From Prochlorococcus sp. AG-409-F19 (GTDB lineage Bacteria; Cyanobacteriota; Cyanobacteriia; PCC-6307; Cyanobiaceae), in NCBI GenBank assembly GCA_003215795.1, contig QCJV01000001.1, forward strand, positions 84,548 to 148,547: a stretch of 64,000 nt of DNA, given 5' to 3'. Below are positions 32,588-54,946 of the stretch, in pieces. Below the pieces are notes generated by a model. The model worked only from the letters and a program-made list of their open reading frames with translations. It searched no databases and was not told where the DNA came from. The translations under genes were made by a program, and so were the position numbers. How positions within the stretch are numbered: the stretch's first letter is position 1; the number at the start of each line of letters is the position of its first letter.

Positions 32588-32648
32588 GGTTCCGACCTCG
32601 TTCATTCCAAATGCCAATGTCAAAAATTGGTAGTAGGGCATCTCAAAT

Positions 32649-32721
32649 GCGCCGTTAGTTCAGTTGGTAGAACGCAGGTCTCCAAAACCTGATGTCGGGG
32701 GTTCAAGTCCTCCACGGCGCG
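32649..32721 (+). tRNA. trnW: tRNA-Trp (CCA anticodon)
   Basis: A complete cloverleaf of 73 nt. The acceptor stem GCGCCGT/ACGGCGC pairs over 7 bp (32649-32655 with 32714-32720). The D arm contains AGTTCAGTTGGTAGAAC, the anticodon loop is CTCCAAA (CCA), and the T arm contains GGGGGTTCAAGTCCTCC. The discriminator base is G at 32721. The 3' CCA is not encoded. Confidence 0.96.
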
Positions 32722-32756
32722 TTAGTAACCCTTTCAGTAGTTTCATTTTTTTACGA

Positions 32757-32945: not shown

Positions 32946-33118
32946 GGATCAACCACTTCCTTCATTTTCCAAGCTAATTAAAAAAAAGAAATAACAACCT
33001 TCTAAAACAAGCCTCTTTGAAAGGTTGACGGAAGAGAGGTTATAGGTTGATACTTCTTGTGCCGGGCTTAACGCATTAGGAAATCCCTAGAAGCTTCCAT
33101 CAAGTCCTCTCCTAAACT

Positions 33119-33192
33119 GGGACCGTAGTTCAACTGGTTAGAGCACCGCCCTGTCACGGCGGAAGTTGCGGGTTCGAATCCCGTCGGTCCCG
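33119..33192 (+). tRNA. trnD: tRNA-Asp (GTC anticodon)
   Basis: A complete 74-nt cloverleaf. The acceptor stem GGGACCG/CGGTCCC pairs over 7 bp (33119-33125 with 33185-33191). The D arm contains AGTTCAACTGGTTAGAGC, the anticodon loop reads CTGTCAC (GTC), and the T arm contains GCGGGTTCGAATCCCGT. The discriminator base is G at 33192. The 3' CCA is not encoded. gltX begins 22 bp downstream. Confidence 0.97.
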
Positions 33193-33214
33193 TATCCAAA
33201 ATTGACTAAAACTC

Positions 33215-34645
33215 TTGACAGTCAGAGTAAGACTCGCACCAAGTCCCACAGGTGATTTACATATAGGGACAGCCAGAACAGCATTATTCAATTGGTTATA
33301 TGCTCGTAAAAACAATGGGGTATTTTTACTTAGGATAGAAGACACTGATAAGGAAAGATCAAAACCAGAGTTCACAAAAAATATCCTTGAAGGGCTTAAA
33401 TGGCTTGGATTAACTTGGGATGAACAACCAGTCCTTCAGTCTGAGCGAATTGCTGAACATCGAAAAGCAATTGTATCTTTGCTCAAAAAAGGCCTTGCTT
33501 ATAGATGCTATGCAACTGAAGCAGAACTTCAACTTATGAGAGATACCCAAGCAAATTCAGGAGCAGCTCCTCACTATGACAATCGCCATAGAAATCTGAC
33601 TTCAGAAGAAGAAAGTAAATTCGTTGAAGAAGGAAGGACTTGTGTAATTCGTTTTCGAATTGATCAACAATCCACAATTACTTGGAACGACATTGTTAGG
33701 GGTCCAATGCAATGGAATAGCAAAGATCTAGGTGGAGACATTGTTATTTCCCGGAGAGCTCCAGCAAATGAAATAGGAGATCCTTTGTACAACCTAGTTG
33801 TAGTAGTAGATGATGCTGCAATGAAGATCTCTCACGTAATTCGTGGTGAAGACCATTTATCTAATACCGCAAAGCAAATTCTTCTTTATCAAGCTCTAGA
33901 TCTTCCGCAACCAGTCTTTGCACATACTCCCTTGATTTTGAGTGCAGAAGGGAAAAAGCTTTCAAAAAGAGATGGAGTTACTTCAATTAGTGATTTCAAA
34001 AAAATGGGTTATACCTCAAATGCTTTAACTAACTACATGACACTTCTAGGCTGGTCTCCACCTGATGGAATGGAAGAAAAATTTAGCTTAAAAGACTCGT
34101 CTCTAGTTTTTGACTTTAATAGAGTAAACAAAGCAGGTGCAAAATTTGACTGGGATAAGCTTAACTGGCTTAACTCGCAAGAAATTCACGATTGGTCTCC
34201 TGACAAACTTCTTGAAGAATTAAAATCTATATGGCTTTCAGAAGGCTGGATATCACCTGATAAAGAGTGGTCTTTAAAATTAGTCGAACTGATAGGTCCA
34301 TCCCTAACTCTCTTAAATGATGGACTTGAGGAAAGTCGAATCTTTTTTGATGAGCCTTCTCTACAAAATGATGCTATTAAGCAATTGGAAATGGAAGGCG
34401 CTAAAGAAGCTTTAAGTTATATCTTTAAAAAAATTGAGAAAAATAAATGGAATGGACAGAATCAAGATGTAGCAAAAAGCATAATATCTGACTGTGCTAA
34501 ATCATTAGGAGTCAAGAAAGGATTGATTATGAAAAGCCTTAGAGCAGCCCTCATGGGCACCCTTAAAGGTCCAGATCTAATCTCATCATGGGGTTTGCTT
34601 GCAATGCAATCTAAAGACCTTCCCAGGTTAAAAAAAGTACTTTAA
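33215..34645 (+). CDS. gltX: Glutamyl-tRNA synthetase
   Basis: Class I synthetase that charges tRNA-Glu; in cyanobacteria glutamyl-tRNA also feeds tetrapyrrole synthesis. 476 residues. The HIGH motif is in [12 protein letters not shown] (residues 10-21) and the KMSKS counterpart in [10 protein letters not shown] (~245-254). The start is TTG at 33215, giving [14 protein letters not shown], the canonical N-terminus. It follows tRNA-Asp by 22 bp. The C-terminal anticodon-binding half (~325-476) is as long as usual. Confidence 0.96.
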
Positions 34646-34664: not shown

Positions 34665-35860
34665 TTACTCCTCTGCAAGCAATCCTAATTTTTCAGCCAA
34701 TGGTTTTGCCGTTAATCCTTGTATTCCCACAGTCATAAGAATAGTTAGAAAAACCAACCCTTGTAGCCTGCCTGCTCCCAGAACACCCGCTTGTTCAAGA
34801 CGAATTGCAAAAGCGAGGCAACTGCAGCAGTGACTATCCCCCTGGGCGCAAGCCAACCAAGAAACAATCTTTGCTTAATATCTAAAGGCAATCCAATTGT
34901 TGCAAGGCTTACAGCTAAAGGTCTTACTACAACCATTAAAACGAGAACACAACTTACCCCACCCCAGCCAAGAGGACTTAATTCACTCCAAGAGACATCT
35001 GCAGCAAGAAGTGGGAAAAGCATTGTGATAGCAAGTTGAGCCAGCTCTCTTATTAATTCATCTAATTTATCAACCTCAATCGAAGGACTTCTGCCAACAA
35101 TAAAACCTGCAGCAACAGAAGCAGGCAAGCCTGATTCAGGCAATATCCATTCGCTAATCCCATAAAGAAGAAAAAGCACTCCAAGAGTCACTTGCAACCT
35201 AATCCCTATTGCAGAATCAGTTTTTATCCTTTTTAAAGCTTCTGAGAGAATCCACCCAGCAAATAAACCAATAATGACTCCACCTCCTAGTCTTGCTAGC
35301 AAGCCAAAGATCAATTCCCGCCATCCATGTAAATCTCCAACCAACAATTCCAGTAAAAGTAATGCTAAGACAGCTCCAATAGGTTCTAGAACAAGCCCCT
35401 CTGCCTCAAGGACATCTCCTAAAGGGGAAGCAAGCCTTATTTGCTGCACAAGTGGTGTTACGACAGTTGGACCGGTTGCTAAAACGATCGCACTATATAC
35501 AGCTGCAACATTCCAAGCCAGTCCAGCCAGAAGATGCGCAATGAGCCAAACAGCTCCTAAAGAAATAAATAGCCTTATAACTAAAATCCGAAAAACAGTA
35601 GATTTTATAGTTTCGCCAGGAAGCCTAAGATTCAAGCCTCCATCAAAAAGAACAAGGCTGACAAGTAGTCCAACTATAATTTCAAGTCCTTGCCCCAAGT
35701 CAAGAGGCTCAACAAGACCCAGTCCAGACCTGCCTATTAGCAGTCCAGAAAGTAGAAGCAAAACAACTCCAGGGAAGCCTGTGAGCACTGACAACAGCCT
35801 TGCTCCAGCACCAGCAAAAACCGTAACCCCCCAAAGCAGACCAAGCCTCTCAGGAGTCAT
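34665..35860 (-). pseudogene. Na+/H+ antiporter (CPA1/NhaP-like), interrupted by one-base frameshift
   Basis: A sodium/proton antiporter of 10-12 membrane helices. The 5' part of the frame (34745-35860) encodes 371 residues with GFPGVVLLLLSGLLIGRSGL, DGGLNL and ATGPTVVTPL, and ends in nonsense. The last real residues, LGWLAPRGIVTAAVASL, are followed in another frame by FAIRLEQAGVLGAGRLQGLVFL to a stop at 34665. Adding one A to the four-base run at 34809-34812 (an extra T on the coding strand) restores one 398-residue protein. A real mutation, a strain-level variant, slippage or a sequencing slip are all possible. Confidence 0.85.
34809..34812. other. Homopolymer at the antiporter frameshift
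   Basis: A run of four A on the plus strand. Five would keep the antiporter frame intact. Homopolymer runs are the commonest place for both natural slippage and base-calling error. Confidence 0.8.
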
Positions 35861-36091: not shown

Positions 36092-36280
36092 TTATTTAGC
36101 CCCGAAAAGATTGTTAACCAAGATTAAAACAATCAATCCTAGAATCAAACCTAACGAAGCCATGCGACCATTCCAAATTTCAGCTTGGGGAGTAAAGCCT
36201 CTTTTCCATGCATTTAGTTCAGTTTTAGTAACAGGTGGAGCATCCTTTTTCTTATTAACATCAGTAGAAGAAAAATTCAT
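36092..36280 (-). CDS. hli: High-light-inducible protein (Hli/Scp)
   Basis: Single-helix thylakoid protein related to light-harvesting proteins that binds chlorophyll and protects against excess light. 62 residues. The chlorophyll-binding helix is in ELNAWKRGFTPQAEIWNGRMASLGLILGLIVLILVNNLFG. It contains the E-x-x-N-R-x-A-M-type motif (here AEIWNGRMA) and a hydrophobic helix at ~42-58. A basic, Lys-rich N-terminus (~6-20) faces the stroma. It stands alone, 38 bp after tsaD on the same strand. Confidence 0.94.
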   Translation of the reverse strand: MNFSSTDVNKKKDAPPVTKTELNAWKRGFTPQAEIWNGRMASLGLILGLIVLILVNNLFGAK

Positions 36281-36318: not shown

Positions 36319-37392
36319 TCAAAATGGCGGATTAGTTTTATAGAGGAGGTTTGACTGATCTAAAGGATGCCTTGCTGAAACACCAAGTTCTAGAGAACTA
36401 GACCTTGGTCCTGATCTTAAGCGTAACAATGCAGCAGTGCCTATCATTGCTGCATTATCTGTACAAAAGCTTTTTGGGGCCATATATATACTTATCAAGT
36501 TCTCAGAAGCTTTTCGAAACATCATTTCTCTTAATCGGTTATTGGCTGCCACACCGCCTACCAATACTAAGGAATTAAGTTCATTTTCAGTAGCACATTT
36601 GATACTTCTCTCTACCAAGACTTCCGCAACTACATTTTCAAAGCTAGCCGCAAGATTGGCTAAAGGAAGTTCTAGGCCCAATGAATTAAGACGTTCAACT
36701 TGGCGTGAAACAGCTGTTTTTAAACCACTAAATGAAAAATCGTAAGGGAAAAAGCCTCCTTCAGGGTTCGAAACTCTCCCTTTTGGGAAAGCAAAAGACT
36801 TAGGCTCTCCTTTATCTGCTAATTTCTCAATCTCTGGTCCTCCCGGATACGATAGTCCTAATAATCTCGCAACCTTATCAAAAGCTTCTCCAGCTGCATC
36901 ATCATGACTACGGCCAAGCCTGGTATAACACAAATCTGTATCAACTTTAATTAATTCTGTGTGCCCTCCACTGACCAATAATACTAAGTAAGGAGGTGAT
37001 GGAACAGACTCAGAAAGAAAAACCGACGAAAGATGCCCCTCTAAATGATGAATACCTAAAAAAGGACGATTATAAAGGCAGGCCAATGTTCTAGCTGTTA
37101 TCGATCCAACCAAAAGAGCACCTGTCAGTCCAGGGGTTACTGTTGCTGCTATTGCATTTACCTTAGAAATACTTATTCCTGATTGATCTATTGCTTTTTC
37201 TAGAAGAAAAGGCATTTTTTCAAGATGTCTTCTTGAAGCTATTTCTGGAACAACCCCTCCCCATTGAGAGTGTTCATCAGCTTGCGAAGCAATGCAATTC
37301 GCCAAAATTTGGAACTTATCCTCATGAAATTGGACAACTGCTACGGCTGTCTCGTCACAACTTGTTTCGAGGGCAAGTACTGTGTGCGTCAT
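36319..37392 (-). CDS. tsaD: tRNA N6-threonylcarbamoyladenosine synthase TsaD
   Basis: Transfers threonylcarbamoyl to A37 of tRNAs that read ANN codons. 357 residues with the ASKHA-fold start [16 protein letters not shown] (~4-19). The iron-binding pair is in [14 protein letters not shown] (~110-123). Also seen are SGGHTELI, a [28 protein letters not shown] segment (~165-190) and a C-terminal [18 protein letters not shown] with a conserved Asp. It is divergent from psaF, with ~75 bp between the starts. Confidence 0.96.
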
Positions 37393-42765: not shown

Positions 42766-42816
42766 CCTTTGTACCAATCCATCACTTGTTTTTTTAGCAA
42801 TCATTCAATCAACATC

Positions 42817-43749
42817 ATGCGTCGCATACTTAATTTCCTCCTAGGCTCTTTACTTTTTGGTCTTTCTTTAATAATTTCACCATCTACAACCTGGGCTTAT
42901 CCTTTTTGGGCACAACAAAATTATGAAAACCCTCGAGAAGCAACTGGGAAATTAGTTTGTGCAAACTGTCATCTTGCAAAAATGACTACACAAGTTGAAG
43001 TGCCACAATCGGTAGGTGCTGATAGTGTCTTCAAAGCTACCGTTAAGATTCCTTATAAGCCTGGAACTGAAGAGATAGGTGCTGATGGCAGCAAGGTGCC
43101 TTTACAGGTAGGAGCAGTAGTTATTCTTCCAGATGGATTTAAGCTTGCACCTCAAGATAGATGGAGTGAGAAAATAAAAGAAGAAACCAAAGGCGTATAT
43201 TTCACTCAATACAGTGAAGAGAAAGATAATATTATCCTCGTAGGTCCTCTTCCTGGCGATCAAAATAAAGAAATAGTTTTCCCAATTCTTTCACCTGACC
43301 CAGCGACAAACAAAGACATCCATTTTGGAAAGTATTCAATCAATATTGGAGGGAATAGGGGAAGAGGGCAAGTTTATCCCACTGGAGAAAAAAGCAATAA
43401 TTCTCTTTTTACAGCACAAAAATCAGGAACAATTTCTTTAATTGAAGCTGGAGAAGATGGCTCTACTAATGTCACAATCCAAACCAAAGAAGATGGTCAA
43501 ATAATAGAAACTATTCCTGTAGGCCCATCTTTGCTAGTGAAAGAGGGCGATCAAATAAAGGCTGGGGCTCCATTGACAAATGATCCTAATGTAGGTGGTT
43601 TCGGGCAGCTTGATACAGAAGTTGTACTTCAAAGTCCTGCCAGGGTACTTGGTCTTATAGCATTCTTTGCTGGTGTTGCTTTAACTCAGATACTACTTGT
43701 TCTGAAAAAGAAGCAAGTTGAGAAAGTACAGGCTGCTAATGGTATCTAA
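42817..43749 (+). CDS. petA: Apocytochrome f
   Basis: The c-type heme subunit of the b6f complex that passes electrons to plastocyanin. 310 residues from ATG 42817, which I prefer to the upstream ATG 42769 because it begins with a good signal peptide (1-27). The mature start YPFWAQQNY (Tyr28 as axial heme ligand) and the heme-binding CANCH (48-52) follow. A C-terminal membrane helix (~275-295) ends in KKKQVEK. It follows petC directly as one operon. Confidence 0.97.
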
Positions 43750-47632: not shown

Positions 47633-47687
47633 AGCATTAACAAGAATCTAGCAGCTCTTGTCTAATATTTCTAAAAACAACCTACAA

Positions 47688-48578
47688 GTGAAGAGTAATC
47701 TATCTACAAACAACCTGCGAGCTTTGTTTAGCCTACTCCGCTGGGATAAGCCTAGCGGAAGGCTGATTCTACTAATACCTGCAGGATGGTCTCTATGGCT
47801 AACTCCCTCCTCTCCCCCAACTGTGAACTTAGTTTCATTAATAATTCTTGGAGGAATGTTTGTCAGTGCCTCAGGTTGTATCGCAAATGACCTTTGGGAT
47901 AGAAGAATAGATTCTAAGGTTCATCGCACTAAAGAGAGACCCCTTGCCAAAGGAAGTATCCGAGTATCAACAGCCGTAATAATCCTTATATTCTTACTTC
48001 TTTTAAGCTTGCGCATAATTTTCCTACTCCCTATTGCCAGCCAAAGTATCTGTTTAAAACTTGCTGTTATCGCTTTGTTCCTTATCATTTTATATCCATC
48101 TTCCAAGCGATGGTTTCGTTACCCCCAAGCACTTCTAGCTGTCTGCTGGGGCTTCTCAGTCCTAATCCCCTGGGCTGCAAGCGAATCTTCTTTGAATGGG
48201 GGAGTCCCTCTACTGACATGCTGGCTAGCAACAATGATATGGACTTTTGGTTTTGATACTGTATATGCAATGGCCGACAAAGTTGACGATAGAAAACTAG
48301 GTTTAAATAGCAGTGCTCTAGCACTTGATAGAAGTGCTTGCAGAGTAGTATCTACTTGCTACGCCTTAACATCAATACTAATAGCAATAAGTGCCTCATT
48401 TAAAGGGATTGGTCCCATCTTTTGGCCTATCTGGCTAGTAGCAAGCATAAGCATGCAAAAAGAAGTTTTATCCTTAAATATTTTGCAACCAGAGATATCG
48501 GAATCTGGTAAACATTTCCGCAATCAGGTTTTACTTGGAGGGTTAATTTTGTCAGCCTTAATACTGGGTAATTTATAA
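47688..48578 (+). CDS. UbiA-family aromatic prenyltransferase (4-hydroxybenzoate-like)
   Basis: Membrane prenyltransferase that attaches a long isoprenoid to an aromatic ring, for quinones (plastoquinone in cyanobacteria). Near 300 residues, ~9 helices. The metal-diphosphate motif NDLWDRRIDSKVHRTKERPLA and the second motif DTVYAMADKVDDRKLG are intact. The frame opens at TTG 47658, but GTG 47688 (MKSNLSTNNLRALF) is an equally good start and I use it. It runs 3 bp ahead of the S66 peptidase gene, so coupling is likely. Confidence 0.93.
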   Translation: MKSNLSTNNLRALFSLLRWDKPSGRLILLIPAGWSLWLTPSSPPTVNLVSLIILGGMFVSASGCIANDLWDRRIDSKVHRTKERPLAKGSIRVSTAVIILIFLLLLSLRIIFLLPIASQSICLKLAVIALFLIILYPSSKRWFRYPQALLAVCWGFSVLIPWAASESSLNGGVPLLTCWLATMIWTFGFDTVYAMADKVDDRKLGLNSSALALDRSACRVVSTCYALTSILIAISASFKGIGPIFWPIWLVASISMQKEVLSLNILQPEISESGKHFRNQVLLGGLILSALILGNL

Positions 48579-54922: not shown

Positions 54923-54946
54923 AGTAATTTAGTTAATGCAAAAGGT

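Follow-up and report, generated by a model that had tools for sequence, protein, structure and literature searches.

The window analysed here is a 64,000-nucleotide stretch of the Prochlorococcus sp. AG-409-F19 assembly (G000). On its minus strand lies a CPA1-like Na+(K+)/H+ antiporter gene of family PF00999 (34665..35860), recognised by its PF00999 match, its orthologues and a lone gap against its nearest relatives. The reading frame starts with an ATG at 35860, leaves the ancestral frame at a run of four T (34809..34812, minus strand; AAAA on the plus strand), placed from the sequence and the gene alignment, and from there reaches the natural stop at 34665 via another frame. The 371-amino acid open frame (34745..35860, minus strand) consists of 349 ancestral-frame codons and an out-of-frame tail with its stop at 34745; it reads LGWLAPRGIVTAAVASL, followed by LQFVLNKRVFWEQAGYKGWFF-stop as the out-of-frame tail. 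The 3' remainder of the gene (34665..34808, minus strand), recognised by coding constraint in the ancestral frame, carries, in another frame, the final portion of the antiporter domain, and a 63-amino acid ORF (34665-34856, minus strand) ends at 34665. The first-pass annotation had described two frames here, one of 371 amino acids and a second ending at 34665, and both are present on the minus strand.

The truncated product matched PF00999 with an E-value of 2e-35 and 122.8 bits (cut-off 26.2), which bears out the naming of the gene as a Na+/H+ antiporter. The match extends up to position 340 of the 375-position profile, whereas the protein of an intact relative extends to 375/375 (132.8 bits). 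The assembled copy is truncated and does not contain the complete PF00999 transmembrane domain. Judged by the profile match, the gene belongs to PF00999 despite the truncation of the assembled copy, and chance would be far too weak to account for the similarity found on both sides of the break.

The intact relative aligned to the solved structure of Na(+)/H(+) antiporter 1 (4czb), which we take to come from Methanocaldococcus jannaschii, over residues 21-355 (E-value 4.3e-10). Compared with the CPA1-like members of PF00999 (NhaP-type; structure 4CZB), the window copy lacks the final part of the domain owing to the break. Among the NCBIfam antiporter models that matched, equivalog cut-offs were reached neither by the window copy nor by the intact relative, so the ion specificity of the antiporter is not assigned. 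Ending after 349 true residues and without the last part of the domain, the product would probably be non-functional.

The gene is flanked by a convergent gltX (33215..34645, plus strand), which encodes a class I glutamyl/glutaminyl-tRNA synthetase (PF00749, 1.8e-96) and had a tblastn match at the same locus in 78/78 loci. Upstream of the antiporter gene lie a 62-amino acid ORF (36092..36280, minus strand; tblastn match in 47/78 loci) and tsaD (36319..37392, minus strand; PF00814, 3.4e-85; match in 46/78 loci), these neighbour counts being drawn from flanks of at most 3 kb per locus. The 62-amino acid ORF matched no Pfam family at an E-value of 0.001 and is presumably a high-light-inducible-type protein. 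Just upstream of gltX are genes for tRNA-Trp (32648-32722) and tRNA-Asp (33118-33193), beyond which a scan of the window against Rfam found no family at the gathering score.

Intact orthologues and constraint beyond the break

We compared the gene with its orthologues in related strains. The T-run has four T in the window and five in each of the five most similar same-genus relatives (G007, G003, G009, G010, and G002), in agreement with the earlier proposal that one added base at the run joins the two frames. When the 1196-bp stretch was aligned by BLASTN with its three nearest relatives (90.3, 89.7, and 89.5% DNA identity), a single gap appeared in 1197 columns, as expected for the one-base break described in the first-pass annotation, and the gene alignment put this gap at the T-run, where the annotation had located it (34809-34812). 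The gene was found in 12/13 same-genus relatives, each with an open frame of 398-403 codons, and the 398 residues previously predicted for the intact protein equal the length of the closest orthologues; the 13th relative, G012, gave no antiporter match. In an alignment of the 13 same-genus copies, G000 included, the gap is confined to G000, and the frame is intact in all 12 orthologues.

A wider search with the antiporter protein gave matches in 93/99 genomes, G000 included (92/98 relatives), and none in G012, G023, G045, G052, G072, and G091. At least one of the 93 matching genomes contributes a distant paralogue only (G034, 26% identity). The protein of the intact relative ran in a single frame, defined as no stops from query residue 15 or earlier to residue 385 or later, through 78/79 named loci and 29/29 loci from the genome search, two sets that overlap and are not additive (L002 and L031, for example, give the same match). 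The remaining named locus, L109, stops within the gene at the end of its contig. Most of the named relatives are Prochlorococcus whose names follow the single-cell style; the more distant ones are Synechococcus and Cyanobium. Among the genomes compared, the window's species is represented by G000 alone. Against the three nearest relatives the antiporter protein is 97-98% identical, compared with 86.6-87.6% for gltX and 89.1-90.8% for tsaD. By these identities the antiporter gene is strongly kept and is more conserved than both neighbours.

The substitutions that follow the break bear on its age. The 49 post-break codons (stop counted) show 15 synonymous differences between G000 and its nearest relative and 1 non-synonymous difference, a D to E replacement at codon 398, the last residue. 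Counting as private those substitutions by which G000 departs from a base shared by four close relatives, all 8 post-break cases fall at third positions; before the break, first, second, and third positions carry 6, 0, and 28 private changes, respectively. On this pattern the tail has been read in the ancestral frame through virtually the whole independent history of the lineage, so the break either arose very recently or is not real. A mutation in the very recent past would leave the same tail pattern as an artefact.

An established inactivation that had spread through the lineage, leaving a pseudogene, has the broken frame itself as its sole support. It is contradicted by the third-position bias and the 15-to-1 ratio in the tail, and also by the alignment with the nearest relatives, in which the gene has no further gap. 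We regard it as scarcely credible.

Slippage of the ribosome or of the polymerase at the T-run could in principle yield a complete protein despite the break, and there is indeed a homopolymer at the junction followed by a downstream frame that stays intact up to the natural stop. The run is only four T long, however. Slippery sites follow the rule of a tandem X XXY YYZ heptamer, and by inspection the in-frame CTT TTG context contains none; the RNA 3' of the break folds no better than its shuffles (z-score 0.43), and the arrangement occurs in 0/12 same-genus orthologues. Neither a conserved slippery site in the 13-copy alignment nor a stimulatory structure by fold z-score was found to indicate programmed frameshifting, and we consider slippage highly improbable. 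The first-pass annotation had left four causes open. Conserved slippage and old inactivation did not withstand these comparisons, leaving an amplification or assembly slip as the favoured cause and a very recent private mutation as a possible one.

Breaks elsewhere in the draft assemblies

The 29 contigs of the G000 assembly add up to 912,028 bases, with a completeness of 54.49%. The closest of its named relatives have names in the single-cell style, AG-436-K22 and AG-402-G10 among them. This size and completeness, together with the names of the relatives, suggest that G000 is probably a single-cell genome. We surveyed frame breaks in sampled stretches of three assemblies: G000 (433,453 of its 912,028 bases), G003 (480 kb), and G009 (867 kb). 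The comparison took in ORFs with a length of 100 amino acids or more that aligned over at least 200 columns with at least 80% identity, and an interior break was counted where at least 15 well-conserved codons lay on each side.

The sole clear interior break in G000 was that of the antiporter gene, in comparisons with 159 ORFs of G003 (147 kb aligned) and 202 of G009 (176 kb), two sets that overlap. No other clear interior break was found in the 176 kb of aligned G000 coding DNA; breaks in indispensable genes were seen in the sister assemblies only. Several further candidates were not counted. Some of them, for example those at 42769-43749, 47658-48578, and 28127 of the window, in an ORF at C3:7679 of G000 and in a photosystem II-type ORF on its contig C6, fall within about the first 35 codons and resemble upstream start extensions made by the ORF caller. 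A candidate near 54927 lies close to the start (position 98 of the relative's ORF), has 75-81% identity and disappears under the stricter interior filter. A 101-amino acid ORF on contig C3 of G009, which shifts against both G003 and G000, shows mostly more non-synonymous than synonymous differences and is doubtful as a gene. The many small gaps against G002 and G013, at 66-79% identity, are alignment noise and were left out of the break count.

The sister assemblies carry four breaks. In G009 (L116 and L180, contig C3), gmk is broken by one base in a C run and hisG by one base in a G run, each relative to both other assemblies. In G003 (contig C1), coxB has a one-base break in a G run near codon 20 (L113), and a helix-turn-helix gene, which we assume to be RodZ-like, has a two-base break in an A run (L112). 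Pfam searches of these genes returned Guanylate_kin, HisG, COX2_TM with COX2, and HTH_25. As a control, we counted the synonymous and non-synonymous post-break differences of G000 from each broken copy and, for comparison, from the intact sister. The counts were 10 and 11 against the broken copy vs. 9 and 10 against the intact sister for gmk, 27 and 7 vs. 30 and 7 for hisG, and 49 and 23 vs. 56 and 25 for coxB. With non-synonymous counts no higher than those of the intact sister, give or take one, the three broken copies are not decaying, so their breaks are either recent or errors. Since gmk, and hisG in a free-living autotroph, are expected to be indispensable, these two sister breaks are best read as errors. 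They are probably assembly errors, although unproven as such.

In the published work on single-cell genomes of Prochlorococcus, the benchmark cultures averaged 1.5 misassemblies per 100 kbp, along with 3.0 indels and 5.0 mismatches over the same length (PMC6122165). The window would, we infer, derive from the single-cell workflow benchmarked there. At this indel rate, 1.9 indels are expected per 64 kb, with a probability of at least one of 0.85. For the 176 kb of coding DNA aligned in the survey, the rate predicts about 5.3 indels, against one seen (probability of at most one, 0.03). Either the quality of the G000 assembly exceeds that of the benchmark or the survey overlooks some breaks, and with one break against 5.3 the benchmark error rate is not demonstrated for G000.

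Origin of the short T-run

We think it likely that the missing base reflects an amplification, sequencing or assembly error in what is probably a single-cell genome. The living cell would then carry an intact, conserved and otherwise ordinary CPA1-like Na+(K+)/H+ antiporter gene, and an error in whole-genome amplification, sequencing or assembly would have left the T-run one base short in the draft. The intact gene in all 12 same-genus orthologues, the unchanged constraint in the tail and the homopolymer breaks of the sister assemblies all support this reading; against it, a slip would be expected in a longer run than four or five T. Like homopolymer frameshifts in single-cell assemblies, of which the sister assemblies G003 and G009 offer similar cases in other genes, the antiporter break affects one base at a homopolymer, occurs in one assembly only and is flanked by intact constraint on both sides. 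It differs from them in the shortness of its run (four vs. five T), the runs of G, C or A in the sisters being roughly five to eight bases long. A private error accounts for most of the evidence and has counterparts in the sister assemblies, and it is ranked above a fresh private mutation. A lone broken frame of a core gene in draft cyanobacterial assemblies of this kind should accordingly not be equated with gene loss before the reads have been checked.

The same tail pattern is also compatible with a real, very recent frameshift, private to the cell or strain and too young for decay, which would truncate the antiporter before the end of the transmembrane domain and probably inactivate it, leaving the cell to rely on a second PF00999 antiporter. 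Outside the break the gene shows good conservation and no further gap against the nearest relatives, and the G000 assembly has few breaks overall. The second PF00999 gene (C3:57741-58940 of G000) is open, with a 458-amino acid frame, so loss of the first need not be lethal. Two PF00999 genes were found in 10/14 of all genomes searched. Confusion of the assembly by a second copy of the broken gene was considered and rejected: G000 gives one match with the antiporter protein, and the other PF00999 gene is distinct and lies on contig C3.

Several observations speak against a fresh mutation. The gene has a match in nearly all relatives, both PF00999 genes are present in 3/3 near-complete genomes of the genus, the protein is better conserved than its neighbours, and decay is not visible. 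With such wide presence and high conservation, a broken allele should be rare. A fresh private mutation therefore fits nearly as well as an error but needs a rare event in a conserved gene, and we hold it to be rather unlikely. That a wild Prochlorococcus-like cell truly carried a fresh loss-of-function allele of the antiporter, tolerated through the intact second PF00999 antiporter, seems to us unlikely and slightly more doubtful still; if true, it would count as a minor example of a private allele that has lost its function.

Elsewhere in G000, a photosystem II/antenna-type gene of PF00421 on contig C6 (11339-12502; L144), which we take to be Pcb-like, has 98.9% DNA identity to G009 across 532 bases, compared with about 89-92% for the other genes examined in detail. 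This high identity suggests recent recombination or strong conservation.
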